Source: Oscillospiraceae bacterium (GTDB lineage: Bacteria > Bacillota > Clostridia > UMGS1840). Taken from it: a stretch of 64,000 nucleotides of DNA. The position numbers were made by a program, and so were the translations under genes. The notes beneath the pieces were generated by a model that was given only the letters and a program-made list of their open reading frames with translations, was not told where the DNA came from and did not search any database. The stretch spans positions 62,001-126,000 of the forward strand of contig SVKD01000005.1 of assembly GCA_015068645.1 (NCBI GenBank), given 5' to 3'. Positions 19,857 to 42,380 of this stretch are shown here, one piece after another. Within the stretch, counting starts at the first letter, position 1. Each line of letters opens with the position of its first letter.

Positions 19857-19869
19857 AGGAGAAAACAAC

Positions 19870-20400: not shown

Positions 20401-20402
20401 TT

Positions 20403-21200
20403 ATGATTAAATTAAATGATACTGTTGTAAATATCGGACATTTTCCGGATGGAACAATGCTCTTAAAACAGGATATTCCGGAAGCGGAAAAAATAACAAT
20501 TTCCTGGTTTTACGAAAATGATACGGAAATGATGGCGCTGATTTACCTCACAAATCATCTGAAAGCGCACCAAAAAGAGCAAATTCATCTGTATCTGCCC
20601 TATATTCCAAATGCCCGTCAGGACAGAGTGAAAACCAGCGAAGATGTGTTCACCTTAAAATACTTTGCCGGAGTGATTAATTCTTTAGGATTCAAAACCA
20701 TAACGGTCTTAGACCCGCATTCCAGCGTCAGCGAAGCTCTCATAAACAATATTATTATTGAAAAACCCACCAAACTCATTGAAAATACCATTGCCAAAAT
20801 CACAGCAGCAGAAGGAGAAGCACCTTCTATGTTTTATCCCGATGAAGGAGCAGGAAAACGCTATTCCGGTATGATTCCCCTTCCCTATGCATTCGGTATC
20901 AAAAAACGTGATTGGGCAACCGGTCAGATCAAGGGACTGGACGTAGCAGGCGACGTAGATAATATTCAAGGTAAAAACATCCTGATTGTGGATGATATTT
21001 GTTCCAAAGGCGGCACTTTTTACTTCTCGGCGAAAAAATTAAAAGAACTGGGGGCAAAAAATATTTATCTGCATATCACCCATTGTGAAAACACCATCTT
21101 CGACGGTGACCTGCTAGAAAGTGGTCTGATTACAAAAATCTATACCACCAACAGTATTTTAACGAAAACACACGAAATGATAGAAATTGTAAACTTATAG
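20403..21200 (+). CDS. Short ribose-phosphate pyrophosphokinase-like enzyme
   Basis: The 265-aa protein has the PRPP-binding loop LIVDDICSKGGTF near 197-209 and the LYLPYIPNARQDR catalytic phrase near 62, both characteristic of PRPP synthetase. It is about 50 residues shorter than housekeeping Prs and resembles the compact forms found in phages and in nadV gene pairs. It should make PRPP for the next gene, a nicotinamide phosphoribosyltransferase. Compact relatives in phages instead pyrophosphorylate ADP-ribose, so the substrate should be regarded as open. ATG 20403 is 2 bp after the previous stop, with GGAGAA upstream. Confidence 0.85.
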   Translation: MIKLNDTVVNIGHFPDGTMLLKQDIPEAEKITISWFYENDTEMMALIYLTNHLKAHQKEQIHLYLPYIPNARQDRVKTSEDVFTLKYFAGVINSLGFKTITVLDPHSSVSEALINNIIIEKPTKLIENTIAKITAAEGEAPSMFYPDEGAGKRYSGMIPLPYAFGIKKRDWATGQIKGLDVAGDVDNIQGKNILIVDDICSKGGTFYFSAKKLKELGAKNIYLHITHCENTIFDGDLLESGLITKIYTTNSILTKTHEMIEIVNL

Positions 21201-21212
21201 GAGAAAAAGAAA

Positions 21213-22682
21213 ATGAGCAATGCAATTAACCCTATGTTGCTGTGCGACTTTTATAAAACTGTACACAGCGATATGATTAACCCCAAAATGACCAAATCCA
21301 TGTCCTATTACACGCCCAGAATGAGCCGTGTAAACAGATGGGACAAAGTGGTAATGTTCGGCGTGCAGATGTTCTGCAAAACCTGGCTGATTGATTATTT
21401 TAACCAATATTTCTTTGAGCTTAGCGAAGAAGAAGTGGTAGAAGAATACACCAGAGTGCTGGATGCAACTTTAGGAAAAGGGATCTACGGAACCGAAAAA
21501 ATCAGAAAACTGCATCAGTTAGGATATTTACCGATTGAAATCATTGCGCTTCCCGAAGGGACCATGGTTCCTGTGCACGTGCCTATGTTTGGCATCACCA
21601 ACACTCACGACGATTTCGCTTGGTTGCCTCAGGCGTTGGAAAGCTTGATTTCTGCAGAAATGTGGTATCCCCAAATTACTGCAACCGTAGGCAAAACCTA
21701 CAGAGATATTGTCAATAAATACTATGCGGAAACCGTAGACGACAATGTGCCCAGAGCAAAAGCGTTAGGTGCTTTTGACTTCCGAGGAGATATGTGTGTG
21801 GATGCAGCATTAAAAGCAGGTGCAGGCTGGTGCTTATCCTTTTTAAATACCGCTACGGTTCCTGCAATTCCCTACTTGGAAAATATGTTTAACTGCGATT
21901 GTACCAAAGAGCCGGTGGCATACGGAGCAGTTTCTACCGAACACTTTGTAATGTGCTCCAACTATGCAGTGGACGGCGACGAAATCACCTTCCTTCGCAA
22001 AATGCTCACCGAATTATATCCCAACACCAGCTTCTCCTGTGTGCTGGATAGCTATGATTACTGGAACGTAATTGATAACATTCTGCCTCAACTTCACGAT
22101 GAAATTTTAGCTCATAATGGCTGTATGCTGATGAGAGGTGATTCCGGAGACTGTGTAGAAGTAGTTACCAAAACCGTATTCAAGCTGTGGGACCAGTTCG
22201 GCGGAACTGTAAACTCCAAAGGATATAAAGTGTTGGATCCTCATGTAAAAGCTATTTATGGAGACAGCATTACCGTACAGCGTTGCGAAGAAATTTATGA
22301 AATCTTAATGAAGGAAGGTTTCGCTTGCTCTAACGTGGCTTTAGGTGTCGGCTCCTTCTCCATGCACTGTATTGAAGAAGACAATATGTTAAAACCTTTC
22401 ACCAGAGACACCTTCTCTTCCTGCATCAAGGCTTGTTATGCAGAAGTGGACGGAAAATGCTACCCCGTTTTCAAAAATCCCAAAGACGGTGGCTTTAAAA
22501 AGAGCCAGAAAGGTCTCTGCTATGTGTATGAAGAAAACGGCGAATTAAAATACAAAGATGAATACACTTCCAAAAACATTCCCGAAGGAAATCTGTTGGA
22601 AACCGTATTTAAAGACGGAAAAATGGTAAAAGATTATACATTGGACGAAATACGTCAAAAATTGAATGGTGGTGAATTTTAA
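21213..22682 (+). CDS. nadV: Nicotinamide phosphoribosyltransferase (NAMPT/NadV family)
   Basis: The 489-aa protein has the length and order of motifs of NAMPT. These are LLCDFYKTVHSDM at the N-terminus, VSTEHFVMCS near 240, SCVLDSYDYWNV near 270, LMRGDSGDCVEVV near 305, NSKGYKVLDPHVKAIYGDSI near 330 and FKNPKDGGFKKSQKG near 430. It should convert nicotinamide and PRPP to NMN, which NadR adenylates. Where vertebrate NAMPT has HDFGYRG (its Asp contacts the nicotinamide amide) this protein has GAFDFRG, so acceptor or donor preference may differ. It follows the PRPP-synthetase-like gene by 12 bp. Confidence 0.9.
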   Translation: MSNAINPMLLCDFYKTVHSDMINPKMTKSMSYYTPRMSRVNRWDKVVMFGVQMFCKTWLIDYFNQYFFELSEEEVVEEYTRVLDATLGKGIYGTEKIRKLHQLGYLPIEIIALPEGTMVPVHVPMFGITNTHDDFAWLPQALESLISAEMWYPQITATVGKTYRDIVNKYYAETVDDNVPRAKALGAFDFRGDMCVDAALKAGAGWCLSFLNTATVPAIPYLENMFNCDCTKEPVAYGAVSTEHFVMCSNYAVDGDEITFLRKMLTELYPNTSFSCVLDSYDYWNVIDNILPQLHDEILAHNGCMLMRGDSGDCVEVVTKTVFKLWDQFGGTVNSKGYKVLDPHVKAIYGDSITVQRCEEIYEILMKEGFACSNVALGVGSFSMHCIEEDNMLKPFTRDTFSSCIKACYAEVDGKCYPVFKNPKDGGFKKSQKGLCYVYEENGELKYKDEYTSKNIPEGNLLETVFKDGKMVKDYTLDEIRQKLNGGEF

Positions 22683-23413
22683 TGTTTGATGCAAAAAAAG
22701 TGAAAAATGACTGTGTAAAATGGATTCAGAATTTCTTTGAAGCAAACGGAAAAGATTGTAATGCGGTAGTTGGAATTTCCGGCGGAAAAGACAGCTCCAT
22801 TGCGGCAGCTTTGTGTGTGGAAGCTTTGGGAAAAGATAAAGTTGTGGGAGTGTTAATGCCTCAGGGTGAACAGCACGATATCGACAAGGCTTATGAACTT
22901 GTTAATCACTTGGGAATCCGTCATTATGAAATCAATATCAAGGATGCGGTTGACGGCATCTTAGAAAACTTTCCAAAAGATTTAGAACCCACTTCTCAAA
23001 CTGTTCAGAATATTCCTCCCAGAATCAGAATGTCTACCCTGTATGCAGTATCTCAGAGCGTAAACGGCAGAGTATGTAACACCTGTAATCTGTCGGAAGA
23101 CTGGGTTGGATATTCCACCAGATACGGCGATTCCGTGGGTGATTTTTCTCCGCTTTCCAATCTGACGGTAACCGAAGTAAAACAAATCGGATATGAATTA
23201 AACTTACCCAAAGATTTGGTAGATAAAATCCCTATTGACGGTCTTTGCGGAAAAACTGATGAAGAAAATTTAGGGTTCACTTATGCGGAACTGGATATTT
23301 ATATCAGAACCGGCAAAATTGAAGATCAGGCGAAAAAAGAACTGATTGACAGAAAACACAAAATGAATCTGTTTAAATTGGAACTGATGCCCTGCTTCAA
23401 ACCGGAGGTATAA
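22682..23413 (+). CDS. nadE: NAD synthetase, ammonia-dependent type
   Basis: The 243-aa protein lacks the glutaminase domain. The PP-loop GISGGKDSS at residues 31-39 binds ATP, and the phrases VLMPQGEQHDI, GRVCNTCNLSEDWVGYSTRYG and GDFSPLSNLT are typical of the NH3-type enzyme. It amidates nicotinate adenine dinucleotide to NAD. The start overlaps the stop of nadV by one base (TAATG), so translation is coupled. The deamido substrate is not made by the NadV-NadR route, so this enzyme links the operon to nicotinate or de novo synthesis. Confidence 0.93.
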   Translation: MFDAKKVKNDCVKWIQNFFEANGKDCNAVVGISGGKDSSIAAALCVEALGKDKVVGVLMPQGEQHDIDKAYELVNHLGIRHYEINIKDAVDGILENFPKDLEPTSQTVQNIPPRIRMSTLYAVSQSVNGRVCNTCNLSEDWVGYSTRYGDSVGDFSPLSNLTVTEVKQIGYELNLPKDLVDKIPIDGLCGKTDEENLGFTYAELDIYIRTGKIEDQAKKELIDRKHKMNLFKLELMPCFKPEV

Positions 23414-23417
23414 TCCT

Positions 23418-24296
23418 ATGAATATCCAAAGTTTATCTATCGTTGTTCCCAATCGCTCATGTATCAACAATTGCAAATTCTGTGTCAGCAGAATGCATTG
23501 TGAAGATATTCCCTATCATATTCACATTGATGATCCCGATTTTGAAACCCATCAGAGCGATTATTTAAAACGGCTTGCATTCGCAAGAGATAACGGCTGT
23601 AATACCGTGATGCTCACCGGTTCCAGCGAACCTCAGCAAAACAAGCAATTTCTGCAATATTTTGCCGAAATGAACAAACGGCTGGAAAAACCTTTCCGTT
23701 GGATTGAAATGCAAACCACCGGTGTACTTTTAGATGACGGTTACCTGAACTTTTTAAGGAAAAGTGTTGGAGTAAATACTATCAGTGTGTCCATCACCTC
23801 TTTTGATGATGAAGTCAACCGTTCCTACGTGCAGATGCCTGAAAAATATGCAGTAAATCTGCAGGAACTTACGAAAAAAATCAAATCTTTCGGATTCAAT
23901 TTAAGATTATCTGTCAACATGACTGATTATTTCAATAAATATCATCGGAATGCAGCCGAATTTTTTGAGGATGCGAAAAAATTATTCAATCCAGACCAGA
24001 TGACCATTCGTCTTCTATACAAAACCAATGACGCAAGTCCCCAGTCTGATTGGGTCAACGAACACGCCTGCAACGAAGATGTCACCAACGAAATCGTGGA
24101 CACTGTACGTTCTAACGGGATTCAACTGGAACGCCTCCCCTACGGCAGAATCAAATATTCCTATCTCGGAATGTCGTTAGTGGTTGATGATGACTGTATG
24201 AGTAAAACTGCTGTGGAAGATTATAAATACTTAATTCTGCAGCCAAACTGCAGATTATACAGTCGTTGGGATGATACTGCAAGTCTTATTTTTTAA
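23418..24296 (+). CDS. Radical SAM protein in the NAD operon, function unknown
   Basis: The 292-aa protein has the radical SAM cluster motif at Cys15, Cys19 and Cys22 (CINNCKFC). A glycine/serine-rich strand (VMLTGSSEPQ) follows near residue 72, and then QTTG and SVSITSFDDEV, as in SAM-binding half-barrels. It has no extra ferredoxin or SPASM-like cysteine cluster, and no known subfamily could be assigned by eye. It starts 4 bp after nadE and is the last gene of the operon, so its chemistry is probably connected to NAD or nicotinamide metabolism or repair, but this is inferred from position only. Confidence 0.8.
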   Translation: MNIQSLSIVVPNRSCINNCKFCVSRMHCEDIPYHIHIDDPDFETHQSDYLKRLAFARDNGCNTVMLTGSSEPQQNKQFLQYFAEMNKRLEKPFRWIEMQTTGVLLDDGYLNFLRKSVGVNTISVSITSFDDEVNRSYVQMPEKYAVNLQELTKKIKSFGFNLRLSVNMTDYFNKYHRNAAEFFEDAKKLFNPDQMTIRLLYKTNDASPQSDWVNEHACNEDVTNEIVDTVRSNGIQLERLPYGRIKYSYLGMSLVVDDDCMSKTAVEDYKYLILQPNCRLYSRWDDTASLIF

Positions 24297-28295: not shown

Positions 28296-28795
28296 AACTG
28301 ATTCACTACCTTTTTAAAAACTGCAAATTCTTAATTTATCTGATTCTTGCAGTTTGCATTAGCTTCATATCGAATATCATGATGCAAAAAGCTTTTAGTA
28401 TACTCCCAAAGCTGGTTGCACCTGTATTTTTGATTCTTTTCATTCTTCGAACCAACGATGATATCAAAGATTATGAAAAAGACAAAGGCAACAAAACACA
28501 ATATCTTTCCAAAAAAGAACTGATTTCACTATACATATTCCTGAGTTTTTTACTGGTAGCAATCAATTTATGTATATATCCGATACACGGATTTCTCAGC
28601 ATTCTAATCATCGGGTATATGCCGCTTTTGGAAAAAGCGGCTCCCTTCAAGCTGTTTTTCGGTGCATTTCTGTTTATTTTGTATGCATGGCTAAACGAGG
28701 TGAGCTCTCTGAATCACTATGTGGTGGGAACGTCAGTTTTCTTGGTATTATCCACAATATTTTACGTTATGAAAACGAGGAAATCATATGATTGA
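28292..28795 (+). CDS. Short UbiA-like membrane protein
   Basis: The 167-aa protein has five or six hydrophobic segments. RTNDDIKDYEKDKGNK near residues 51-66 resembles the first Asp-rich (N/D-D-x2-D-x3-D) motif of UbiA prenyltransferases, which bind prenyl diphosphate through magnesium. Full UbiA proteins are about 290 aa with a second Asp motif; only the first half is present here, so it may be a reduced relative or a structural membrane partner. It overlaps both neighbours (4 bp upstream, 8 bp downstream), so it is translated with them and not a decayed fragment. Confidence 0.6.
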   Translation: MKLIHYLFKNCKFLIYLILAVCISFISNIMMQKAFSILPKLVAPVFLILFILRTNDDIKDYEKDKGNKTQYLSKKELISLYIFLSFLLVAINLCIYPIHGFLSILIIGYMPLLEKAAPFKLFFGAFLFILYAWLNEVSSLNHYVVGTSVFLVLSTIFYVMKTRKSYD

Positions 28796-31343
28796 ATATA
28801 TCGATTACGTAACATCGACAGAAAAAATCGGAGGAAAGGCATATCACCTTTCTCACCTTTTTGAAAATAAGTTTCCTGTTCCGAATTGGATTGTGTTATC
28901 TTCGGATGTTTTTTTTGAGTTTTTAGGAGAAGACAAAGTAACGTATACTTCCCTTTTAAATCATTACACAGAAGAAAACAGAGTACACCTTATTTCCTTA
29001 ATAAAACACAAACAGTTTTCTGATGAATGCAAACAGAAAATCTTAAACCAAGTGCAATCCGTCTTCTCACAAACGGATTTATTGGCTGTGCGTTCCAGTG
29101 CAACTGACGAAGACGGAGATCATCATTCCTTTGCCGGAATGATGGAATCCTTCTTAAACGTGACAATCGAAGACGATATTTTTGATGCAATAAAAGCATG
29201 TTACTTATCCTGCTTTTCGGAGCGAATTATGAAATACCGCGCTCAGAACGGACTGATTAACGCCAATATCAGTGTGGCTGTCATTCTTCAAAAAATGATA
29301 ACGCCCGATGTTTCAGGCGTAATGTTTACTTCTAATCCACGTACCAACAATCCCGAGGAATGTTTGATTTGCGTTGTAAAAGGATTGGGAGAACGGTTGG
29401 TATCGGGAGAAGCAGACAGTACCGACTATGTGGTGAACCAAAACGGAGAAATCACTGTCAAAAATATTGCGGATGAGCTTATCTTAAGCGATGAAATCAT
29501 CAAAAAAATTCACGCAACGGGAATCGCTATAGAAAAAAGCTATTCTCCCCGTGTGGCAAAAGATATTGAATTCTGTCTTAAAGATAACGAACTTTACATT
29601 CTTCAGGCAAGAACCATTGCAACCTACAGTTTTTGTGATAAAAACAAGCCCTTGACAATTCTGGATAATTCCAACATTATCGAAAGCTATTCAGGAGTCA
29701 CCACTCCCCTGACCTACACCTTTGCTAAAGATGTTTACACCAAAATATACAATCAGACTTTAAAAAGTTTTTTTGTGAAAGATTCGGCCATCAAATCCAT
29801 TCAAGACGATCTTGCCAATATGATTGTGTTCTACGAAAACAAAATCTATTACCGGTTAAACAGTTGGTATAAAATGACAGCCCTCTACCCCGGATATGAA
29901 AAAAACAAAAAATATATGGAAAACATGATGGGAGTCAAAGTGGAGCTGGTGGAAACCAAAAAAGCTGCCAAAATACGTGAAATCCGTATTTACACCAGTT
30001 TTATTAAGAAAATGCTTCTGATGAAACGGCACAGTAAAAAATTTATTGAAAAATTCAATGCCGTTACCAAACCTTACTACGGTTCTGATTTCAAAGGAGT
30101 TAAAAACACAGAACTACTATCTGTTTACAATTCCTTGGAAACAGAAATTTTAGACGATTTCATCACGCCCATCGCCAACGATATGGGCGCTATGATTTTC
30201 TATGGATTCTTAACAAATTTACTAAAAAAACAGAATATTCAAAATTATGAAGGGCTCATCAGCGCTGTAATCAGCAAACAAGGAAATGTGGAAAGCGCTC
30301 AACAAAGCGAAAAGCTTCTTTGGATTATAAAACAAATTAAAAACGACCAAGAGCTTTCCAATCTTTTTCTAACAAAATCAACAGAAACCATTATCCAAAA
30401 AATGGATTCAGATTCTCCTGTTTTCACAGCAATCAGAGAGTATATTTATCAATATGGTGCCAGAATGATGGATGAACTAAAGCTGGAAACCATAACACTT
30501 TTTGAAGATCCCACGTTTCTGATAGAAACCATAAAACATTATTTATGTTTAGAAAACTCAGTTACCGAAAATAAACAAGATTCCAAATCGGCACAAAAAG
30601 AGTTGCTCTCTCACTTTGGATTATTCCAAAAACCGATTGTCAGTCTTCTTGTGAATATTACCAAATTCTTTGTAAAAAATCGGGAATCCTTACGATTAAG
30701 AAGAACCTACATTTATTCCATTGTGCGGAGTATTTATCTGCGTGCAGGTCAAAACCTTTATGAAAAAGGAGTTCTGCTGGCACCAAGGGACGTGTTTTAT
30801 CTGACAAAAGAGGAACTCACAGATATGATGCAAGGTGCAGAATATGAGATTGCAGCAATCAGAAATTCTATCAATAACCGTAAAGCAGAATACACAAAAA
30901 ATAAAGATAAAATAACTTATGAAAGAATGCATTTTTACGGTGAAGTGTGTCCTGAGAATGCATTAGCTGTCTACTCCGAACAAGAATGTGTGGACACAGA
31001 CGTACTGCAAGGTGTAGCCGGCGGCGGAACCGTGGTAGAAGGAACCGTAAAACTGGTAGAAGATCCCGCCGGTTCCGACGTAACAGGTTATATTCTGATG
31101 GCCAAACGAACTGATCCCGGTTGGACTGTTCTGTTCCCCATGGCAAAAGCAATCATTATTGAGCGCGGCAGTATCCTCTCGCATTCTGCAGTGGTTGCCA
31201 GAGAAATGGGCTTGACCTTAGTGGCGGGAATCCGCGGACTGACAAATAAAGTGAAGGATGGTATGAGAGTGCGGGTTGACGGTATCAACGGCACTGTCGA
31301 AATCATAGACGATGAACAAAATGAAAAACAACAAAACGAATAA
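28788..31343 (+). CDS. PEP synthase-like phosphotransferase (rifampin phosphotransferase-like layout)
   Basis: The 851-aa protein starts with an ATP-grasp PPDK_N domain (AVRSSATDEDGDHHSFAGMM at 101-120, and the VMFTSNP and EFCLKDNELYILQAR phrases). A long helical middle region follows, and the mobile phosphohistidine domain closes it (GSILSHSAVVARE with His799, then VDGINGTVEI). The PEP/pyruvate-binding TIM barrel of PpsA and PPDK is missing. The same layout is found in rifampin phosphotransferase, where the beta-phosphate of ATP passes through the histidine to a small-molecule hydroxyl. Here the acceptor is unknown; a pathway intermediate is more likely than an antibiotic because of the operon context. 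Confidence 0.85.
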   Translation: MIEYIDYVTSTEKIGGKAYHLSHLFENKFPVPNWIVLSSDVFFEFLGEDKVTYTSLLNHYTEENRVHLISLIKHKQFSDECKQKILNQVQSVFSQTDLLAVRSSATDEDGDHHSFAGMMESFLNVTIEDDIFDAIKACYLSCFSERIMKYRAQNGLINANISVAVILQKMITPDVSGVMFTSNPRTNNPEECLICVVKGLGERLVSGEADSTDYVVNQNGEITVKNIADELILSDEIIKKIHATGIAIEKSYSPRVAKDIEFCLKDNELYILQARTIATYSFCDKNKPLTILDNSNIIESYSGVTTPLTYTFAKDVYTKIYNQTLKSFFVKDSAIKSIQDDLANMIVFYENKIYYRLNSWYKMTALYPGYEKNKKYMENMMGVKVELVETKKAAKIREIRIYTSFIKKMLLMKRHSKKFIEKFNAVTKPYYGSDFKGVKNTELLSVYNSLETEILDDFITPIANDMGAMIFYGFLTNLLKKQNIQNYEGLISAVISKQGNVESAQQSEKLLWIIKQIKNDQELSNLFLTKSTETIIQKMDSDSPVFTAIREYIYQYGARMMDELKLETITLFEDPTFLIETIKHYLCLENSVTENKQDSKSAQKELLSHFGLFQKPIVSLLVNITKFFVKNRESLRLRRTYIYSIVRSIYLRAGQNLYEKGVLLAPRDVFYLTKEELTDMMQGAEYEIAAIRNSINNRKAEYTKNKDKITYERMHFYGEVCPENALAVYSEQECVDTDVLQGVAGGGTVVEGTVKLVEDPAGSDVTGYILMAKRTDPGWTVLFPMAKAIIIERGSILSHSAVVAREMGLTLVAGIRGLTNKVKDGMRVRVDGINGTVEIIDDEQNEKQQNE

Positions 31344-32409
31344 AAAATTTTCATTTATCCGATATTCCAACTGTTGGGAAGATACCACTGTGCTTTTAGA
31401 AGCTCTTCAAATTAAATCGGATGATATCTGCTTATCCATCGCATCTGCCGGTGATAACACATTATCACTTCTTATCTCCCAGCCCAAAAAAGTGTATGCG
31501 CTGGACATCAACAAAACACAGCTATATTGTCTGGAACTGAAAATGGCTTGTTTTAAGGCACTTTCTTACGAAGAAATGTTGGCATTTTTGGGAATCGGCA
31601 CTTGTAACAGAGTTGCTGTTTTTGAAAAATTGATTCCCTATCTTAGCGAAGAAGCAAACAATTTCTTCCGAAAAAACTTGAAAATCATAAAAAAAGGTAT
31701 CATACACGTGGGAAAATTTGAGCGTTTCTTTCATTTATTTCGAAACGTGGTGATTCCTGTTGTGAGCAGTAAGAAAAAACTTGCCCGTTTATCGGAATTA
31801 TCTGACTATCAGGAACAAACAGACTATTATAATCGCTATATCCATACGAAAAGATTCCAATTTCTTTTCAGAATCGTTTTCGGTCATAAATTTTTGGGAA
31901 CTATGGGCAGAGACCGTGATTTTTACCAATATGTGGAAGAAAAAGAAGAAAGCGGAAACGACTTAAAAAAACGGTTTGAATTTGGTATTTCTCACACGAA
32001 AAACCGTACCAATCCCTACCTATGCTATATTGCCAATCAAACTTACCGAGAAAATGCTCTTCCTTTGTATTTGAAAAGAGAACATTTTAATACCATTAAA
32101 AAAAATCTTTTTAAAATCGAAATGATTCACGGAGACTTATCTTCAGTAAACCATCTTCATTTTGACTGTTTCAATTTATCAGATATTTTTGAATATATGA
32201 GCGAAGAAGAATTTTCAGATTGCGAAGAATTGCTTTCAAAAATTTCCAATCCCAATGCACGCCTCTGTTACTGGAATATGCAAAATAAACGGTATTTTAA
32301 GGATTCTTGCTTTCAATTAGAGGAAGAACCCTCTCATCAACTATTTCAAAAGAACCAGGCCTACTTTTACAGAGATTTTAGGCTATACAGAAAGGAATCC
32401 CATGAGTAA
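31312..32409 (+). CDS. DUF3419 / BtaA-like 3-amino-3-carboxypropyl transferase
   Basis: The 365-aa protein has the DUF3419 pattern: FIRYSNCWEDT at the N-terminus, then the SAM-binding loop LSIASAGDNTLSLL and VYALDINKTQLYCLELK (motif II with its acidic residue). GTMGRDRDF occurs in the middle and NLSDIFEYMSEEEF near the end. BtaA moves the 3-amino-3-carboxypropyl group of S-adenosylmethionine to diacylglycerol to make a homoserine lipid. The partner methyltransferase BtaB is absent, so a betaine lipid is not expected. The start overlaps the previous gene by 32 bp; ATG 31321 is an alternative. Confidence 0.8.
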   Translation: MNKMKNNKTNKKFSFIRYSNCWEDTTVLLEALQIKSDDICLSIASAGDNTLSLLISQPKKVYALDINKTQLYCLELKMACFKALSYEEMLAFLGIGTCNRVAVFEKLIPYLSEEANNFFRKNLKIIKKGIIHVGKFERFFHLFRNVVIPVVSSKKKLARLSELSDYQEQTDYYNRYIHTKRFQFLFRIVFGHKFLGTMGRDRDFYQYVEEKEESGNDLKKRFEFGISHTKNRTNPYLCYIANQTYRENALPLYLKREHFNTIKKNLFKIEMIHGDLSSVNHLHFDCFNLSDIFEYMSEEEFSDCEELLSKISNPNARLCYWNMQNKRYFKDSCFQLEEEPSHQLFQKNQAYFYRDFRLYRKESHE

Positions 32410-33859
32410 CATTGTGGACATCTTTTTAAACGCGTGTCAATTACATAGCAAAAAAACAGCAATCATCTATGAAAAAAAAGGAAAAATCATATCCCAAACC
32501 TTTTTGGAGCTACAACAAGATGTATTTGCCACCGTCTGTTATATGAGAAAAAATAAAATACGGCAAGGAGATAAAATCCTTGCCTTTTGTGCGTCCTCTT
32601 ATGAGCTATGCGTTTTTATGTGGGCATCTTTATTGGTGGGAGCCTCCATTATGTATGTAGATATTTTGGCAAAGCAAAAAAGTCTTCGGGAAATTTTCAA
32701 AGAATACACTCCCGATCGGATTTTAGTATGCAATAAAACCAAAGCTCTTCGTTTTTTCTTTCGGGAATTTTCAAAAATCAAGCAAGTAATCAATATTGAT
32801 AAAATCCCAATGAATTCTTTTGATTCCGATAAAATTGCCTTATCCCGAATATCAGAAGATACGTTGGCATTACTGACTATGACCACAGGCTCCACAGGAA
32901 TCCCGAAAGTAGCCTTAAGAAGCCATCAGGACCTGATGCAACAACTGCAATTAATCAAGGACAATACCGTGTTATCCTATCAGAATGAAATGGCTCTGAC
33001 CACTTCATATATTTATGTGTTTGCCAATATGCTCTGCGGCATCACCACCGTGTTACCCCAACTGAATTTAAAGAAACATGAAAAATCGATCAATCAAAGA
33101 TTGGCTCTGTTTTCTCATTTACCCGTTACAATGGCAATCACCACGCCCGATTTTTGTTTCAAAGCAGAAAACCACTTTCCCAACTTAAAACGTCTGTACG
33201 TCGGCGGAGCCATCTTAAATTTGCACGAAGCCAAACAGATTCAGAACAAGTTCCCTGATTCTGAAAATATTGTAATATACGGCTCCACAGAATGCAGTAT
33301 TATGTGCACAATCACACTGAAAGAATTTATTTCTCTGCTATCACAAACAGGACGATCTCCTTTAGGGTATCCCGTAAAAGGAGTAGATGTCCGTTTAACC
33401 GATGAAAACGAAATTATCGTCCATAGTGATGCCCTGCTGGCAGATTATCTTACCCAAGATAAATCCACTAAAACTAACGATGAAAACGGTTTCTTATGGC
33501 ATCATACCAACGATATGGCAATAAAACAAAACGGTGTTTTTTATTTTTTAGGAAAAAGCAAGTATTTTGTGAGCGTAAACAACCAAAAAATATATTCCAA
33601 TGAAATCGAACAGAGGATTATCACAACTCTGGAAGAAATATCCAAATGTGCAGTTTTGCAGCATCAAGAAAAAGTTTACGTGTTTTTAGAAGACTACACC
33701 AAAGAACTTGCCGAAAAAATCGCAAAAATCCTGCGAAAAACTTATCAAATTACAAATTCCGAAGTGGTGCCCATCAAAAAGATTCCGTGCGATGTGAAGC
33801 ACCACACGAAGATTCATTACGAAAAGTTAAAAAAGAGGTTCAAACATGACAGAATATAA
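32402..33859 (+). CDS. AMP-forming acyl/aryl ligase 1
   Basis: The 485-aa protein belongs to the ANL adenylating superfamily. The phosphate-binding loop is MTTGSTGIPKVALRSHQD near 160, IYGSTECSIM near 298 is the A5 motif, and the C-terminal hinge has LGKSKYFVSVNNQKIYSNEI. The last Lys-rich segment could carry the A10 lysine. It activates a carboxylic acid as AMP ester and usually loads it onto CoA or a carrier protein. No carrier protein gene was found in the operon. Overlaps the previous gene by 8 bp and the next by 14 bp. Confidence 0.88.
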   Translation: MSNIVDIFLNACQLHSKKTAIIYEKKGKIISQTFLELQQDVFATVCYMRKNKIRQGDKILAFCASSYELCVFMWASLLVGASIMYVDILAKQKSLREIFKEYTPDRILVCNKTKALRFFFREFSKIKQVINIDKIPMNSFDSDKIALSRISEDTLALLTMTTGSTGIPKVALRSHQDLMQQLQLIKDNTVLSYQNEMALTTSYIYVFANMLCGITTVLPQLNLKKHEKSINQRLALFSHLPVTMAITTPDFCFKAENHFPNLKRLYVGGAILNLHEAKQIQNKFPDSENIVIYGSTECSIMCTITLKEFISLLSQTGRSPLGYPVKGVDVRLTDENEIIVHSDALLADYLTQDKSTKTNDENGFLWHHTNDMAIKQNGVFYFLGKSKYFVSVNNQKIYSNEIEQRIITTLEEISKCAVLQHQEKVYVFLEDYTKELAEKIAKILRKTYQITNSEVVPIKKIPCDVKHHTKIHYEKLKKRFKHDRI

Positions 33860-35267
33860 TATTGATGCTCTTTTAAAACGAGGAAAAGAACAGTTTGGCA
33901 CCAGAAAATATATTTATGAAAAGCATCAGGGAAAATTTGTTGCAAAAAAATACGCCGACTTTGTTTTTGATGTTTATGCCTTTGCTTCCCTGCTCATGGA
34001 AAAAGGATTGTCAGATTGCAACATCGGTTTATACGGCCCCAATTCTTATCTCTATATGGTGGCAGATATTGCTGTGATGGGATATGTAGGTACCTGCGTT
34101 GCAATATCCAAGGAATGGAAATATTACGACTTGGAAAACACCGTTACCAAACTAAAGCTTTCTGCAATACTGTATGATTCTTCCAAAGAAGAAGAAATCC
34201 GTCCTTTAAAAGCTGTCTTTCCGACTGTTTTATTTATTTGTCTGAATGAAATCAAACATCTGAAAGAACAAAGACAATCCCCTGCTCCGAGAAATCCCCA
34301 AGAATGTTCCAAAATCGTCTTTTCTTCAGGTACAACCGGGATTCCCAAGGCAATTATGCTATCCCAACAGAATATGTTTGCCAATTGGGAAAATCTTTAT
34401 AAAAGAGCTCCCCTAAATTGCGAAGATACCTGTTACTTGTTTTTGCCGCTGCATCATGTATATGCGGGAATCAGCGTGTTTTTATATTCGCTCATTACCG
34501 GTATGCAGATATATCTGTGCAGCGATACCCAAAATATCTTCCAAGAAATTCAGCAAATTAGACCAACTGTGTTCTGTGCAGTTCCTTTGATTTATGAAAA
34601 AGCATACAGAATCTGTAAAAGCGAAAATATCCGACCGTCTGACTTATTTGGCGGACGGATGAAATTTTTATTTTCGGGCGGTGCATTTTTTAAGCCTGAA
34701 ATCAGAAAATTTTTAAAAGATGACGGAATCAATCAACTTCACTCCTACGGATTATCTGAAACTTCCTCCATTATTTGCGTGGAATATTCCAATCAGAACG
34801 ATTTTGAATCGGTTGGAACCATATTTGAAAATTTGGACGTAAAAATCAAACATCCTGATGAAAACGGTATTGGGGAAATAACAGTCCGTGGCGAAAATGT
34901 TTTTTTAGGATACTACAGAAAAAATCTCCAAGACACTTTCGATAAAGACGGCTATTTTCACACAGGAGATATCGGCTATATCCAAAACAATAAAATCTAT
35001 CTTTGCGGCAGAAAAAAACGAATGATTTTAATGTCCAACGGCGAAAATGTGTACCCCGATGAAATTGAGGAACTTCTGATGGAACACGAATCCATCAACA
35101 AAGCAAAAGTTTTTGAAAAGGACCATAAAATTGTGGCACAGCTATATGTGAATCAACAAATTAACTGTGAAACAGTAATTCAAACAATTAATCAAAAATT
35201 GCCAAAATACTCTATCATAACAGATTTTGAAATGATTTCCGACAACGTAGATGTAAGATTGAAATAA
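33846..35267 (+). CDS. AMP-forming acyl-CoA ligase 2
   Basis: The 473-aa protein shows the complete ANL motif set: VFSSGTTGIPKAIMLSQQNM near 157, HSYGLSETSS near 299 (A5), GYFHTGDIGYI near 373 (A7) and LCGRKKRMILMSNGENVYPDEI near 385-405 (A8 hinge, quoted in part elsewhere). The pattern SGTTGIPKA with HHVYAG is most like fatty acyl-CoA or long-chain ligases. It is clearly related to but divergent from the gene before it, so the two probably activate different acids. Last gene of the operon; a terminator follows at 35316. Confidence 0.9.
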   Translation: MTEYNIDALLKRGKEQFGTRKYIYEKHQGKFVAKKYADFVFDVYAFASLLMEKGLSDCNIGLYGPNSYLYMVADIAVMGYVGTCVAISKEWKYYDLENTVTKLKLSAILYDSSKEEEIRPLKAVFPTVLFICLNEIKHLKEQRQSPAPRNPQECSKIVFSSGTTGIPKAIMLSQQNMFANWENLYKRAPLNCEDTCYLFLPLHHVYAGISVFLYSLITGMQIYLCSDTQNIFQEIQQIRPTVFCAVPLIYEKAYRICKSENIRPSDLFGGRMKFLFSGGAFFKPEIRKFLKDDGINQLHSYGLSETSSIICVEYSNQNDFESVGTIFENLDVKIKHPDENGIGEITVRGENVFLGYYRKNLQDTFDKDGYFHTGDIGYIQNNKIYLCGRKKRMILMSNGENVYPDEIEELLMEHESINKAKVFEKDHKIVAQLYVNQQINCETVIQTINQKLPKYSIITDFEMISDNVDVRLK

Positions 35268-35370: not shown

Positions 35371-35532
35371 CTAGATCTGAGAGCCTTCGTCTAAAAGAGC
35401 CATGTTGTAAGTGGTGGTGATTTTACCATTGGAAGTAGTTACAACTGCGGTTTCTAACGGATTTTCGTAAGCAATTGCTTCATTTGCTTCGATAGAAACG
35501 AATTCTAAAGAAGGGCAAGTATATTTTTTCAT
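35371..35532 (-). CDS. 53-aa peptide gene downstream of a secreted protein
   Basis: A short open frame starts at ATG 35532 with a strong AGGAGG site 10 bp upstream and reads MKKYTCPSLEFVSIEANEAI and 33 more residues, ending LLDEGSQI. It has no signal peptide or membrane segment. The N-terminal MKKY-x-x-P-x-L/M-E-x-V form is one I associate with short clostridial peptides of unknown function, some of them near peptide-modification genes. It lies 22 bp after the stop of the 603-aa secreted protein and before a shared terminator, so the two are probably one transcript. The C-terminal half, rich in Thr, Asn and Ser, could be a core region, but no modification enzyme is adjacent. Confidence 0.7.
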   Translation of the reverse strand: MKKYTCPSLEFVSIEANEAIAYENPLETAVVTTSNGKITTTYNMALLDEGSQI

Positions 35533-35554
35533 ATCTGGTTATCCTCCTTTAAAA

Positions 35555-37366
35555 TTATTCAACAGTTACAGTTGCTTCTTCGCTGTAGTTATCACCAACG
35601 AAGAATTTGTATTCTTTCACACCTGCGGAAACGCCTTCTAAAACGATTTCAAAGGTACCGTCCCATTCACCAAAGGTGAAGGTGGTGGTGCCGCCGTTAC
35701 CGTCAGAAACGATATCACCAGGTCTTGCACCATAGTATTTCTGTGCTCTGGTGCCGGTTTTATTGGTAGTAAATTCTACGCCGTATGCTAAATCCATCCA
35801 TTCAGCGCCGATTCTACCACCCATAGTGATGGTGTTGCCTACAGCTGTTGCAGCAACAACATCATTGAGGAAGGAATCAACAATGGGAGCAACGGGTTTT
35901 AAGTTTTCAACATTGAACTGCCAATTGTATGCAGGTAAAGATACTAAAGAACCGGTTTTTGCCATTTTGATTTTGGTAATCAAGGTATCGCCTGCACCGG
36001 TGTTTTTAAAGGTAATGGTATTTGCACCTGCTCTTAAGAAGATGATTTCCATATCCTGATTGCCAACACCGTGTTCACCCTGATGCAGTTCGTTCCAACC
36101 TACACGGCCAGCCTGCTGGTTAATAACGCCGTAGAAACCGGTATCACTTTCCACAGTCATCTGTGCCTGGGTATCATAAGAAAACTGAATCTGAGTTACA
36201 TATAAACCTGCTGCGGGAGCAGTTAAGGTAACATCAACAGATCCGTTAGGACCAATTGCAACACCAGATGCACCATAATCGGTGTAGGGATGCTGAGCAT
36301 TAGAATAATTACCAGACAGAGTCAGTTCGGAAATGCTGGAGGGAGCCAGCGGAATTTCAGCAGTTACCTGATCTAAGTAATCCAGACCATTATTTTCCAA
36401 AGCGGTAATGGTAAGGGTTGCAGTGTCATCGCTGATGTTTAAGGTGTTTGCACCTTTTAACAGATAGATGTAACCGGTTTCACCAGCTTCCAATTCTGCA
36501 ACAGAACCGATTTCGGAAGTTACAGTAACAGCTTTGTCAGAAGATACTTCATATACACCTGCTAAGTCAGCAGTGTAAGAGGTAGTTCCGGGAGTAGTGG
36601 TGGGAACATCAGGAGTCGGTTCAGGTTCTGCAACATAAGGAACTACTTTCAGCGCTTTCATTGCCATCTGAGGTAACCAAAGATCATTTGCAGTAAACGG
36701 ATAAGTAGTACCAAATCTGGTAGTCTGAACAATCGCATCGGAACTTCCGATATTTGTGAGGGTAATGGTCTGTTCGCCGGCTTTTAAATAAACGATTTCA
36801 GGATCTCCTTTGTTGGAACCATCAGCCCATGCAGAAGAAGATGAACCTCTAAGCAGAATATCTGCATAGAAACCGGTATCGGAAGTCACTCTGATAGTAC
36901 CGCCTTCTGTACCGGAAAGGTAGGGATAGTAGATACCTGCACCCTGATTCGCTGTATGGGTCAAGGTAACTGATTGACCGGGAGTCAAATAAATTGCATC
37001 ATTAGAGGTCACATCATGGGTATCTTTGGTTCCGCTGATCAGTACATTCGGAATGTTAACCTGATCATAGAATGCTTTACCGTTGTCTTCCAGAGCGGTA
37101 ATGGTTAAATTAGCACCGTTGCTAACCTGTACTTCGTTTGCGCCTTTTACCAGGAAGGTATAGCCGGTTACGCCTGCTGCTAATTCTGTAACAGAACCAG
37201 CTTCGGTAGTTACAGTAGTAGCTTTGTCAGCAGTTACCGCATACACACCTGCATAAGGAGCATTGTTTGAAGATACTGCTCCAGCTGCGCTTACTGCAAC
37301 AGTCTGAACCAGTACACAGCTTAACATCATAACGATTGCTAAGCCGAGGCTTAAAAGCTTTTTCAT
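35555..37366 (-). CDS. Secreted modular beta-sandwich protein (603 aa)
   Basis: The signal peptide (1-27, cut after VSA) is followed by two copies of a module of about 90 residues. It starts AGVYAVTADKATTVT in the first copy and AGVYEVSSDKAVTVT in the second, and continues with a GYxxLxKGAN strand and the LTITALENNG phrase. Each is followed by a carbohydrate-binding-like sandwich (YLTPGQSVTLTH; ADILLRGSSSS). The phrase TSDTGFYADI and its relatives recur. A C-terminal domain of about 100 residues follows. No catalytic motif is visible, so it is probably a surface adhesin or glycan-binding protein. It is a smaller relative of the protein encoded at 37755-42077, and the strong identity of the first 100 residues suggests recent duplication. 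Confidence 0.75.
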   Translation of the reverse strand: MKKLLSLGLAIVMMLSCVLVQTVAVSAAGAVSSNNAPYAGVYAVTADKATTVTTEAGSVTELAAGVTGYTFLVKGANEVQVSNGANLTITALEDNGKAFYDQVNIPNVLISGTKDTHDVTSNDAIYLTPGQSVTLTHTANQGAGIYYPYLSGTEGGTIRVTSDTGFYADILLRGSSSSAWADGSNKGDPEIVYLKAGEQTITLTNIGSSDAIVQTTRFGTTYPFTANDLWLPQMAMKALKVVPYVAEPEPTPDVPTTTPGTTSYTADLAGVYEVSSDKAVTVTSEIGSVAELEAGETGYIYLLKGANTLNISDDTATLTITALENNGLDYLDQVTAEIPLAPSSISELTLSGNYSNAQHPYTDYGASGVAIGPNGSVDVTLTAPAAGLYVTQIQFSYDTQAQMTVESDTGFYGVINQQAGRVGWNELHQGEHGVGNQDMEIIFLRAGANTITFKNTGAGDTLITKIKMAKTGSLVSLPAYNWQFNVENLKPVAPIVDSFLNDVVAATAVGNTITMGGRIGAEWMDLAYGVEFTTNKTGTRAQKYYGARPGDIVSDGNGGTTTFTFGEWDGTFEIVLEGVSAGVKEYKFFVGDNYSEEATVTVE

Positions 37367-37754: not shown

Positions 37755-40700
37755 TTAGAATACGGGTTTTAAGCCGTCAAAGCTATCCCAGATAAATACT
37801 TTAATCTGGTCGCCTGCTTCGGGGATGTAATCATATAAAGTAGCTTCAACAGGTACATAGGTACCAACAGCTTCTTCATATTCTAAGTATCCTTCGCCCA
37901 TCATGTATAACGGACCGGCTTCTGTGTAAACTGCAACTAATACAGTGGTGTCCACTTCGTTCCAGTCACCAACCTGAACGGTGTATACCAAGTTACCGGA
38001 ACCGTCATCAGATGCGGAAATCATATTTTTAGCGAAGTCGTATGCAAATTTAACGTCTTCGTAAGTTTCGTATGCACCGGATTCCAGCATAGCGCAGTTT
38101 AATAATGCGTTGTATGCATATTCAGGATAGATGAAGTCAGTTTCAGGAGTAACGGTGATGTCAGATGTTAACACATCGTTAAATTCTGCTAATGCTGCTT
38201 TGATATCTGCGGTAGTTTCTGCAGACTGCATAGCTGCTAAGAACATATCCTGACGGGTTAAGGTGGTGAATTCGAAGCTGTGAACATGAGTCATCATCTC
38301 GGTAGCGGTACCTGCATCTTCGTTTTCAGTCAGAGTAAAGGTCATGGTATAATCACCAGCCGGTAAGTATACTTTATCGGGAGTGATGGTTACACTTGCA
38401 GCTTCGTTTTCGTTTCCGAAGTAAGGCAGTTCGCCATCTAACATAACGATATCTTCATTTACGCCATCAGACAGAGTGATTACAACGCTAGGAGTCAGCG
38501 GTACAGTACCGGTCATAACAATACCATAGTAATCATCTGCAGGGATAGTTACATTGTACTGATAGGTGATGGTATCTGCAGTAGAATTGTTGGTGTTTGC
38601 TACATGAATACCCATGTAGTTATTTCTTGTGGTGTATTCAGAAATCTGGGTTAAATCATCGGATGCACCGATGTAGTCAAATGCCTGAATAAATGTGCCG
38701 GGTAACACTTTGGAAGTATCTTCCACATATTCTAAGGAAACACCTTTTAAATATACCCAGCCAGGACCGTCGTTACGAACCCAAACGGAGTTCACACCTT
38801 CTTTTAAGGTGATGTATCCGCCGGTAGAGTTAACGTAGTTATCGGGAGTCAGGGAATGTTCGGTAGTTCCTTTGGAATCAATGGTTTCCACGGAAATGGT
38901 GGTAGCCTCACCATAAGATGCTGCCAAAGTGGTAATCTGGTAAGTACCTGCTACTTTTGCAGTTACTTCAAATCTCTGCCATTCACCTTCCCGTAACTGA
39001 GTACCGTGACCGGAACCAATGGGGGGAGTAGTAGTGCTGTAGAAATGGAAGTCATAACCCATACCGCCTTCAGTTAAGGTGTCGGTATAAGGATTGATGG
39101 TAATCGGTCTGGGAGGAGTCAGCTTACAATCGTCAATGGTAACAGTAGCTTTTTCTTCCTCGGTTAACAGCTTGAATTCCACGCTACGTAATACATGGTG
39201 AGTATCACCTGCGGTGATTTCAATATGGTTGATACCTTCTTTTAAGTATACATACTGATAGTTTCCTTCAGCATCGGTTGCTCTCCAAGCACCTTCATCC
39301 TTAACAACATCGGTTGCCAGAGATGCACGGTAACCGTCATCAGCATCGGTATCGATGGTAACGATGGGGAGATTTGCAGGATCGGTAGTACCACCGATTT
39401 TCGCCTGTACTCTATAGATACCGGGATGATAAACCTGCAGTTCGTATTTTACAATAGAGCCTGCACCCTGAACGATGGTATCACCGTTGTTGTCATATTG
39501 GTACTGATACCAATAACCGGAAGAATCGGTCATATCTTTCATGGGGCTTAAGCTCATTTCGAAGGGATCTTCGGGAATGATATTCACGTTTTCTCTCTGG
39601 CTTAAGTAATCGTCAGAGTTGTTTAACTGATAGAAGGAAGCACTAACAAATTCAGTACCGGGTTCACCGGATGCAGTAATAATGTTATCGCCTTCTGCTA
39701 AATAGATATACTGTACGGGAGCTTTTTCTGCAGAGAACTCTACATAATCGCCGGTCGCAGTTTGTAAATGTAAAACGCCGGTATACTCAGCTTCCACTAA
39801 GTACATACCTGCTTCGGGAGCAGTAACGGTGTAGTTCACCCAAATACCGTCAGACAGGTTCATACCTGCATCGGTGTAGGGCGGATAATATCCGATAGAA
39901 GTGTAGGTATTCGCTTTAGTAACACCGTAAGTCCAGGGATTTGCTGCTTTATCCCAATCGGGCCAGCCAACAATAGAACCGGTCCAGCCTTCCGGCCAGG
40001 TGCTTTCGGTATCGTCAGCAGTACCAACATACTGGAAGTATTCTTCGTTGTTTTCTAAGGGTAAAATATCAAATTCGTTGAGTACAATACCGCCGGGCCC
40101 TGCATTATAAACAGTCAGCTCATTGTTACCTTCCTGCAGATAGATGAAATCATCATAGCCGTTGTTGTAGCTCCAATTAGCGGAATTCCATGCACCTTGA
40201 GGAGCGATATTGTACTGTGCATAATAGTCCACGCCATCAACCTGATTAATCAGCTGCAAGGAAGCGGTGGTGTTACTTGCCTGACCGTAACGAACCAGTG
40301 CAACATAGGTGCCATCAGCAGGAATATTATTTAAGGTATAGGTTGCAAAAGAACCTGCTGGGAGATAGATTGCATCGGCAACACCTTTGGTAATCACATT
40401 GCCGGTTTCATCTTTGGCACCCCAGTCGGTACCCAGTAATTCCATACCTTCATCGGAGCTCATGTTGGGAGCAAAGCCTTCGATAAATAAAGCTTCAGCA
40501 TCATAATTGTAGTCGGGATGATTTTCAACCACACCGTCCCAACCTTCAGGGAAGTAACCGTAGTCGATTACCGGAGCATCGCCAATGTATGGTTTTAAGT
40601 TTTCCAGATTGGTCTGAGATGCTAAGTTAGCATTACCCATAATTGCTGCGGTACTGTTAAAGTTAATGTTAGCTAAAATAGTGGGGTTTTCGCTGGTGTT

Positions 40701-42077
40701 TTCGATAGAAATAACGTTTTTACCTTTTCTTAAATACAGAATTTCAAAGTCGCTTCCGCCTGCTACAGTAGTGTACAGAGTGTTTGCAGAGCCGGATTTG
40801 GAAAGTTCTGCATAGAAACCGGTATCAGTCTTCACTTTAATAGAGGTTGCATTAGCATCACTTAAATAAATGTAGGGATATACTAAACCGTTCCAACCAC
40901 CATGTAAATTGGTGTCAAACACTAAAGTATAAACATCACCGGGCTCTAAAGTTACGCCCATACCGTGCTGATAAATGTTACCATCGCCTGGAGTAATAAC
41001 CTGCTGATCAACTACGATCTGATCAAGGTAATCTAAACCGTTGTTTTCTAAAGCAGTAAAGGTTACGTTTACATCTGCATCGGTGGTAGCAACAGTGTTG
41101 GTTCCTTTGATTAAGTAAATGTAGCCGATTTCGCCTGCAGACAGATCTGCTTTGGAGCCGGTTTCGTTTTCAATTACAACCTCAGCATCAGCAGTTACTT
41201 TATAAACGCCTGCTTCAGCTGCTCTGTAAGTGAAGGAATCGGTGTAAACGGAAGGAGTAGCTTCCGGAGTGGGAGTGGGTTCTGCAGTCGGTTCCGGAGT
41301 GGGTTCGGGAGTCGGTTCCGGAGTCGGTTCGGGATTTAACTGAGCCCAAGTCATGGGAACCAAATCAGCAACAGTGTGGAAATCCTGATATTCACCAACA
41401 CTGTGAATTTTGATAGTGTTCAAAATACCAGTGTTCACACCAATATTTTTAATGGTGATTTCCTGGGCACCGCCTCTGACATACAGAAGAGCAGTTTCAG
41501 CTCTTGCTGCATCCTGCCATGCTAAGGAGCTTGCATAGCCTGCATTTTTGTAAATCTTGGTCACAAAGCCGGTATCGGTAGTAACTTCATAAGTATTTTC
41601 TACCAGATCTGAAAAATAAAGATAAGGGTATACAATACCATTCATTCCCTGAGAAGGAGTGTAGGTGAAGGTGTAAGATTCGCCGGGAGCAAGGTATTTG
41701 TATAAATCTCTTGCAACCTCGTCCTCCTGACCAAATAAGATAGGTTGATTAGGAATGTTTACTTGATTAAAGTAATCCATACCATTGTTGTCTAAATCAG
41801 TAATGGTTAAAGCAGCACCATTTGTGATGTCTACTTCGTTTGCACCTTTTACCAGGTACATATAACCGGTTTCGCCTGCCACTAATTCGGTAACGGAACC
41901 GATTTCGGTGGTAATGGTGGTCGCTTTATCAGCGGTTACCGCATACACACCTGCGTAAGGAGCATCGTTGTAATCAACAACTGCATCTGCTGCACTTACG
42001 AAAACAGTCTGACTCAGCACACAGCTAAACAGCATAACGATTGCCAAACTGAAACTTAACAGTTTTTTCATTTTCAT
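37755..42077 (-). CDS. Large secreted modular glycan-binding-like protein (1440 aa)
   Basis: The signal peptide is at residues 1-29. Two modules of the AGVYAVTADKATTI type follow (first at about residue 37, second at about 285). They are separated by a Pro/Glu/Thr linker near 247-272 built of repeated PEPT units. Several sandwich domains resembling carbohydrate-binding modules 6/35 fill the rest (phrases such as GEWQRFEVTAKVAGTYQI, YLKEGINHIEI, and YVTLKEGVNSVW-like strands). The C-terminal 150 residues are helical with an ATTADIKAALAEFND phrase, then a beta domain. No glycosidase or protease motif was found. ATG 42077 has an AGGAGAT site 7 bp upstream and the promoter at 42169; the longer upstream frame is A/T-rich and is not used. 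Confidence 0.8.
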   Translation of the reverse strand: MKMKKLLSFSLAIVMLFSCVLSQTVFVSAADAVVDYNDAPYAGVYAVTADKATTITTEIGSVTELVAGETGYMYLVKGANEVDITNGAALTITDLDNNGMDYFNQVNIPNQPILFGQEDEVARDLYKYLAPGESYTFTYTPSQGMNGIVYPYLYFSDLVENTYEVTTDTGFVTKIYKNAGYASSLAWQDAARAETALLYVRGGAQEITIKNIGVNTGILNTIKIHSVGEYQDFHTVADLVPMTWAQLNPEPTPEPTPEPTPEPTAEPTPTPEATPSVYTDSFTYRAAEAGVYKVTADAEVVIENETGSKADLSAGEIGYIYLIKGTNTVATTDADVNVTFTALENNGLDYLDQIVVDQQVITPGDGNIYQHGMGVTLEPGDVYTLVFDTNLHGGWNGLVYPYIYLSDANATSIKVKTDTGFYAELSKSGSANTLYTTVAGGSDFEILYLRKGKNVISIENTSENPTILANINFNSTAAIMGNANLASQTNLENLKPYIGDAPVIDYGYFPEGWDGVVENHPDYNYDAEALFIEGFAPNMSSDEGMELLGTDWGAKDETGNVITKGVADAIYLPAGSFATYTLNNIPADGTYVALVRYGQASNTTASLQLINQVDGVDYYAQYNIAPQGAWNSANWSYNNGYDDFIYLQEGNNELTVYNAGPGGIVLNEFDILPLENNEEYFQYVGTADDTESTWPEGWTGSIVGWPDWDKAANPWTYGVTKANTYTSIGYYPPYTDAGMNLSDGIWVNYTVTAPEAGMYLVEAEYTGVLHLQTATGDYVEFSAEKAPVQYIYLAEGDNIITASGEPGTEFVSASFYQLNNSDDYLSQRENVNIIPEDPFEMSLSPMKDMTDSSGYWYQYQYDNNGDTIVQGAGSIVKYELQVYHPGIYRVQAKIGGTTDPANLPIVTIDTDADDGYRASLATDVVKDEGAWRATDAEGNYQYVYLKEGINHIEITAGDTHHVLRSVEFKLLTEEEKATVTIDDCKLTPPRPITINPYTDTLTEGGMGYDFHFYSTTTPPIGSGHGTQLREGEWQRFEVTAKVAGTYQITTLAASYGEATTISVETIDSKGTTEHSLTPDNYVNSTGGYITLKEGVNSVWVRNDGPGWVYLKGVSLEYVEDTSKVLPGTFIQAFDYIGASDDLTQISEYTTRNNYMGIHVANTNNSTADTITYQYNVTIPADDYYGIVMTGTVPLTPSVVITLSDGVNEDIVMLDGELPYFGNENEAASVTITPDKVYLPAGDYTMTFTLTENEDAGTATEMMTHVHSFEFTTLTRQDMFLAAMQSAETTADIKAALAEFNDVLTSDITVTPETDFIYPEYAYNALLNCAMLESGAYETYEDVKFAYDFAKNMISASDDGSGNLVYTVQVGDWNEVDTTVLVAVYTEAGPLYMMGEGYLEYEEAVGTYVPVEATLYDYIPEAGDQIKVFIWDSFDGLKPVF

Positions 42078-42168
42078 GTTGCCATCTCCTTTTGATGTAT
42101 ATTTTATTTTTTTTGCAAAATTGATATTGGGAGTTTTATACAAAAAGATATACTTCTCCCCTATTGTT

Positions 42169-42197
42169 ATTGTAACATTTATGTAACATTCTGTCAA
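42169..42197 (-). promoter_or_regulatory. Promoter of the 1440-aa gene
   Basis: On the minus strand TTGACA (42192-42197) and TACAAT (42169-42174), 17 bp apart. It is divergent from the T-box promoter 190 bp away. Confidence 0.75.
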
Positions 42198-42380
42198 TTT
42201 ACTATACAGGACGTATTTACACTCAAAAAGTCCCGTGTATACATTATATAGTATAATATATACCAAATCCATCGAATCCCCATATTCTTGTTTGAGATAT
42301 GGTACACACATTTTATTTTCTACTCCGGATTTGTTTTTGCAAAAATCAACTTATTTTTCTTGTTTTTTTCAAAAAAGGTA

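Follow-up and report, generated by a model that had tools for sequence, protein, structure and literature searches.

At positions 35371–35532 of the window (the whole 64,000-nucleotide stretch of an Oscillospiraceae contig analysed here), the minus strand carries a 53-aa open reading frame (ATG at 35532–35530, TAG stop at 35373–35371) that translates to MKKYTCPSLEFVSIEANEAIAYENPLETAVVTTSNGKITTTYNMALLDEGSQI, and the plus-strand reading of the same interval is interrupted. A Shine-Dalgarno site (AGGAGG, 35543–35548, minus strand) is present in the sequence 10 nt ahead of the ATG, and the ORF begins 22 nt after the end, at 35555, of a gene on the same strand for a 603-aa protein (35555–37366) with a Sec-type signal peptide recognised by eye, MKKLLSLGLAIVMMLSCVLVQTVAVSA. 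Frame, AGGAGG site, and position behind the secreted protein all agree with a preliminary description of the locus. Behind the ORF, where this description placed a shared terminator, lies a strong terminator-like hairpin in the RNA fold (about 35350–35317, minus strand; −25.8 kcal/mol, z −5.0), although a simple terminator scan gave no entry for it.

No Pfam or NCBIfam family was found for the 53-aa peptide, a PHROGs search returned only two matches (E 0.075 and 0.12), and tblastn against plasmids returned none; the AlphaFold model of the peptide was poor (pLDDT 47). Based on the consensus of 71 class-wide precursors described below, residues 1–21 (MKKYTCPSLEFVSIEANEAIA; 35470–35532, minus strand) are proposed to form a leader with a YxxPxL recognition motif, cleavage is predicted after the IA that ends at residue 21, and residues 22–53 (YENPLETAVVTTSNGKITTTYNMALLDEGSQI; 35374–35469, minus strand) would be the exported core.

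A gene row at 28788–35267 converges on the row of the peptide and encodes, by eye, one protein resembling PEP synthase and two resembling AMP-binding enzymes, whose product might be a lipid or a conjugate. Farther away, an NAD salvage row occupies 18813–24293, with NAMPT and NAD synthase assigned by Pfam and with nicotinamidase and PRPP synthetase recognised by eye. Its last member, at 23418, is a solitary radical SAM gene that had been put forward as the only candidate modification enzyme in the window. Its place beside the NAD synthase and NAMPT genes makes that role unlikely, and other candidate machinery is present in the genome. The peptide shares a small leader–core layout with radical-SAM-modified peptides; it differs from them in that this gene belongs to an NAD row and that the contig of the window carries no PqqD gene. 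The earlier statement that no modification enzyme is adjacent is true of the window; taken to mean that there is no enzyme, it fails because the candidate maturation machinery is unlinked.

Conservation of the peptide and of its partner's C-terminal domain

Full-length copies of the peptide were found in all five of the genomes examined from the family, eight in total, including a second copy in the window's own genome (contig C2, 77% identical); the seven other copies share 77–91% identity with that of the window. Public contigs matching the peptide are Clostridia MAGs from gut samples of water buffalo, water deer, and roe deer. Each of the eight copies has a GGAGG site and starts 22–23 nt after a gene, and residues 24–29, 38–47, and 49–53 are invariant among them. 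Over the 28 pairs of copies, dN/dS had a median of 0.22 and a maximum of 0.37. Relative to the window copy, the leader differs by 4–9 nonsynonymous codons, and the nearly invariant core by 1–4 nonsynonymous and 4–8 synonymous changed codons. The 53-aa ORF is therefore a real gene, far beyond chance, and a loss of conservation or of selection, which the preliminary description had named as grounds for dismissing it, was not what was found. The idea of a chance frame, or of a degraded remnant of the end of the 603-aa gene, which draws on the shortness of the ORF and its lack of a Pfam or NCBIfam family, is already refuted by the eight full-length copies, their own Shine-Dalgarno sites, and the dN/dS of 0.22. 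Additionally, the strong constraint on the second half is unlike that of a diversifying antibiotic core, so that the Thr/Asn/Ser-rich half pointed out earlier holds up as the core of a leader–core layout but not as a variable natural-product core, being nearly invariant in the genus.

The gene upstream of the peptide ends in one conserved domain in all eight copies (35558–35902, minus strand, in the window). A profile search with this domain recovered the eight occurrences in the five family genomes, every one directly ahead of a peptide gene, and none in four sister-family genomes. The domain occurs in proteins whose N-terminal parts have no detectable similarity; the partner encoded on C2 (287 aa), for example, aligns to the 603-aa protein of the window over the last 100 residues only. 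Since domain and peptide are always paired, in proteins that differ elsewhere, they behave like a module of two genes within this genus. Pfam gave no family above cut-off for the 603-aa partner, and the AlphaFold model of its C-terminal domain was poor (pLDDT 39). The last 12 residues of the core have a higher strand propensity than shuffled cores (7 of 1000 shuffles reach the value); a donor-strand arrangement, with the end of the core as a beta strand, found little support, the AlphaFold models of the domain and of the peptide being too poor. Elsewhere in the window, a 1518-aa secreted-type protein (37755–42311) has repeats that resemble by eye those of the 603-aa partner, with neither the partner's C-terminal domain nor a peptide copy behind it, and two further proteins (3148–5154 and 59551–60867) end in Cys/Gly-rich tails of the CSSCGGCGGCGG type.

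Within genomes, the similarity of the cores tracks that of the last 90 residues of the partners (r 0.87, a value reached in 0 of 2000 shuffles), part of which reflects recent duplication. A comparison of cores with partner sequences in 37 peptide–partner units with long context gave 666 pairs, which are not independent of one another. Among these, similar cores were found in 24 of 29 pairs in which both parts of the partners were similar and in 20 of 27 with similar C-termini and no detectable N-terminal similarity, against 0 of 17 in which the N-terminal part alone was similar and 6 of 590 in which neither was; the three pairs with similar C-termini and an N-terminal part too short for the test had none. 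The 27 pairs similar at the C-terminus only divide into 16 of 16 with similar cores in the window's genus and 4 of 11 outside it, so the rule is clear in the genus and suggestive elsewhere. In this genus, core type and partner C-terminal domain correspond one-to-one (8/8); linked inheritance of the 3′ end could also give rise to such a pattern.

Candidate maturation genes elsewhere in the genome and precursor-like ORFs across the class

The second copy of the peptide lies at the end of a gene row on C2 with PqqD, signal peptidase, and ABC exporter genes. The order of this row, which is complete and the same in all five family genomes, is Wzz, tyrosine autokinase, CpsB, PqqD, an S24/S26-type signal peptidase, the ABC exporter, two Cu_amine_oxidN1 proteins, two more secreted-type proteins, and the peptide. 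The labels "cohesin-like" and "dockerin-like", given by eye to proteins of C2, have no Pfam support and are not claimed. The PqqD-type protein matches Pfam PqqD over cut-off (63 bits), and its closest solved relatives are TbiB1 (2e-8) and LppB (9x8z, 5e-6). In LppB, N33 and D70 hold the P and Y of the YxxP leader, and these align with N33 and D70 of the PqqD proteins here, both invariant in 8/8, given a constant offset of 18 that we inferred for matching residues to the 9x8z chain. The signal peptidase is over cut-off for Pfam S24, with an archaeal-type model (TIGR02228) as its best NCBIfam match (37 bits, below cut-off) and with invariant Ser, His, and Asp; the best NCBIfam model for the exporter is MsbA (TIGR02203, 233 bits, below the equivalog cut-off). 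The window's genome has two PqqD genes, neither on the window's contig, and the second (C3) was rejected as a member of a peptide cassette, since it adjoins a 673-aa transporter-like gene (by eye) and no recognisable cassette.

An HprK-like kinase with an invariant P-loop is encoded in all nine genomes of the order. Its resemblance to the ScmC and HprK-related kinase models stays under the cut-offs of both, and no Pfam family matches it above cut-off; in a sequence search against solved structures, kinase and peptidase gave weak matches only. The kinase gene lies on C15 in the window's genome, and within the genus it occupies a separate contig, next to a gene for an SLH protein. The HprK-like gene of the four sister-family genomes is followed directly by PqqD, peptidase, and exporter genes, and these cassettes lie near an SLH-looking protein (checked with Pfam in one, L035). 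An NTP transferase (PF14907, NTP_transf_5) is likewise over cut-off in 9/9 genomes of the order, and in the window's genome it lies on C6, not beside the cassette.

Precursors were recruited with a pattern made of a Shine-Dalgarno site and MKxYxxP at the DNA level, with the reversed pattern as control. Matches occurred in eight of the nine genomes of the order (reversed control, 0) and, across the class, numbered 132 in 79 of 341 genomes (reversed control, 15 in 13 genomes). After three overlapping duplicates and two contig-edge matches of genome G024 were left out and two of G002 were added, 129 distinct matches were read; G002 (77% complete) contributes 2 of the 71 precursors below and stands outside the 341-genome table. 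Precursor counts leave out a 25-aa match in G007, others outside 30–120 aa, one off-motif ORF in G243, and five rubredoxin-like matches (four in kinase-bearing genomes, one not). The pattern undercounts precursors, as an ORF at L069:11480–11662 (MKYIKPEIKTV..., one residue fewer before the Y), between 972-aa and 469-aa ORFs, falls outside it.

Among the 341 genomes, the HprK-like kinase was found in 92 and the signal peptidase in 88, both together in 85, the kinase alone in 7, and the peptidase alone in 3. Precursor-like short ORFs numbered 71 in kinase-bearing genomes and 5 elsewhere, and were present in 34 of 92 genomes with the kinase vs 5 of 249 without it (Fisher 5e-17; 27/84 vs 5/249, P 1e-13, with the own order left out; both uncorrected for phylogeny). 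The narrow pattern finds precursors in only 34 of the 92; some of these kinases may belong to lasso systems, whose clusters are reported to carry HPr kinase in rumen bacteria (PMC7533575). A strict leader fit was seen in 59 of the 71 ORFs with the kinase and in 0 of 5 without it. The leader type is MKxYxxPxL...IA with the YxxP motif, and the ungapped consensus of the 71 precursors has [FLIM] at position 14 (71/71), [ILVM] at 20 (66/71), and [TAS] at 21 (63/71). Outside the order, 13 genomes have a precursor ORF 0.16–0.55 kb ahead of the kinase gene on the same strand, and up to seven precursors per genome were found in relatives. The leader–core organisation suggested in the preliminary description is thus upheld by the leader consensus, by the recognition protein, peptidase, and exporter genes at the paralogous locus, and by the class-wide co-occurrence.

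An ORF ends close upstream of 64 of the 71 precursors and is absent from the other seven, and the gap is 10–30 nt for 55 of 71; outside the own order, the figures are 48/54 and 39/54, respectively. By a crude rule for signal peptides, 43 of these 64 upstream ORFs are flagged (34 of 48 outside the order); the background is 10/42 for ORFs of the window and 57/199 for those at other loci. Six of the 21 unflagged ORFs are fragments of genes whose full form starts like a signal peptide (the window protein and five G007 proteins), and other upstream genes, among them the one that precedes the precursor in G151 and one of those in G062, do not resemble genes for secreted proteins. Comparable pairs of a peptide and a secreted protein recur in many gut Clostridia. 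The upstream gene of G151 (L079) contains by eye a CxxxCxxC-like stretch, and four loci (L117, L123, L126, and L131) each have, close to an HprK-like gene, a pair of precursor-like ORFs whose cores contain Cys (for example CTGAC and VGSC), possibly a Cys-modified subtype.

Relation to known peptide systems and proposed role

Linear polyphosphorylated peptides (LPPs) of Bacilli (Popov et al., 2026; PMC13381572) share several components with the system described here, specifically a discrete RRE of PqqD type in which the YxxP-binding residues are the same (binding being predicted here from sequence), an archaeal-type (SipW-like) Ser-His-Asp signal peptidase beside the RRE, an MsbA-like exporter, an HprK-like kinase, an NTP transferase, and a YxxP leader in which T/A occupies the proposed −1 position; the matches here are below cut-off for the kinase and peptidase models and below the equivalog cut-off for the exporter, and PF14907 is over cut-off away from the cassette. 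LPP clusters also occupy polysaccharide loci (PMC13381572), as does the C2 row. However, the LPP precursor motif YxxPxVLxHQxIxFET / Px9Fx[T/A] occurs in 0 of the 71 precursors, which have only the common part YxxPx[hydrophobic], and Ser3 of the core, phosphorylated in LPPs, has no counterpart in a core that, with the proposed cut, starts YENPLE and lacks Ser at position 3. These two differences make the system a related variant rather than a strict LPP. Additionally, the machinery genes are split over three places in the genome, the precursors are dispersed and usually lie behind another gene, and in this genus the core goes with the C-terminal domain of the partner, all unlike LPPs as presented in PMC13381572. 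In the literature searched, which covered few subscription papers or preprints, that paper appears to be the only one on signal-peptidase RiPPs, and the words "Clostridia" and "secreted" are both absent from its main text. Lasso peptides (paeninodin-like and others) have a similar [Y/W]xxPx[L/V/I] leader motif and a PqqD-type B1 protein, and rumen Butyrivibrio and Lachnospira lasso clusters carry HPr kinase, PqqD, or nucleotidyltransferase genes (PMC7533575); however, no B2 peptidase or macrolactam synthetase was recognised in the C2, C15, and window stretches, which were the ones read (Pfam on ten C2 proteins, the remainder by eye).

Most likely, the product of the small gene behind the secreted protein is a peptide whose trimming and export depend on enzymes encoded elsewhere in the genome. 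The reading preferred here, with a probability of roughly 0.7, is that the ORF encodes an LPP-related, RiPP-type precursor matured in trans, and that its core, once exported, pairs with the C-terminal domain of the protein encoded alongside it. The genes of the secreted partner and the peptide belong to the same row, with 22 nt between them. The 21-residue YxxP leader would be captured by the PqqD-type protein of C2, in which the leader-holding residues of LppB are conserved, and the HprK-like kinase, possibly together with the NTP transferase, would modify Ser/Thr residues of the core. The Ser-His-Asp signal peptidase is predicted to cut after ...EAIA-21, and the MsbA-like exporter to release a core of ∼32 residues. 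Action in trans is proposed because none of these enzymes is encoded in linkage with the copy in the window. Outside the cell, the core may act together with the C-terminal domain of its upstream neighbour's product, perhaps bound to it as a strand or serving for attachment to the cell surface or the surface polysaccharide; this is the least certain of the steps.

The main competing explanation, that the peptide is secreted as a signal or antimicrobial of LPP-like or lasso-like kind and that the shared gene row means co-expression only, the two products never coming into contact, is consistent with maturation components that are the same as those of LPPs and with a polysaccharide-locus setting that C2 shares with LPP clusters (PMC13381572). 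It is nonetheless unlikely, as the core is nearly invariant in the genus, unlike the variable cores of bacteriocin-type peptides, and its type follows the C-terminal domain of the partner there; moreover, no macrolactam cyclase was recognised beside the C2 cassette. Less probable still is a small protein that stays unmodified in the cytosol, for instance one that accompanies the secreted protein ahead of its export; the tight spacing behind genes of Sec-type proteins in many genomes would speak for this. The likeness of the leader and the cassette would then have to be coincidental, which is at odds with the restriction of leader-fitting ORFs to kinase-bearing genomes (59/71 vs 0/5), with the 13 genomes in which such an ORF lies just ahead of the kinase gene, and with the conserved YxxP-recognition residues.

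A wider form of the preferred reading is a class-wide "tail and tag" system, in which a single genomic enzyme set, comprising recognition protein, kinase, signal peptidase, and exporter, would mature many dispersed precursors, each encoded together with a secreted protein, and each exported core would be dedicated to the C-terminal domain of that protein, domain and peptide forming a portable two-gene module that would place or complete surface proteins; this extension is tentative and falls somewhat short of even odds. RiPPs are commonly viewed as secreted natural products from compact clusters. In many Clostridia, RiPP-type machinery seems instead to serve dispersed precursors within ordinary surface-protein gene rows, and such precursors are missed by mining around enzyme clusters. 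If the reading is correct, it would supply a candidate cellular role, that of partner to a surface protein, for HprK/signal-peptidase RiPPs, a role left open in the main text of PMC13381572.
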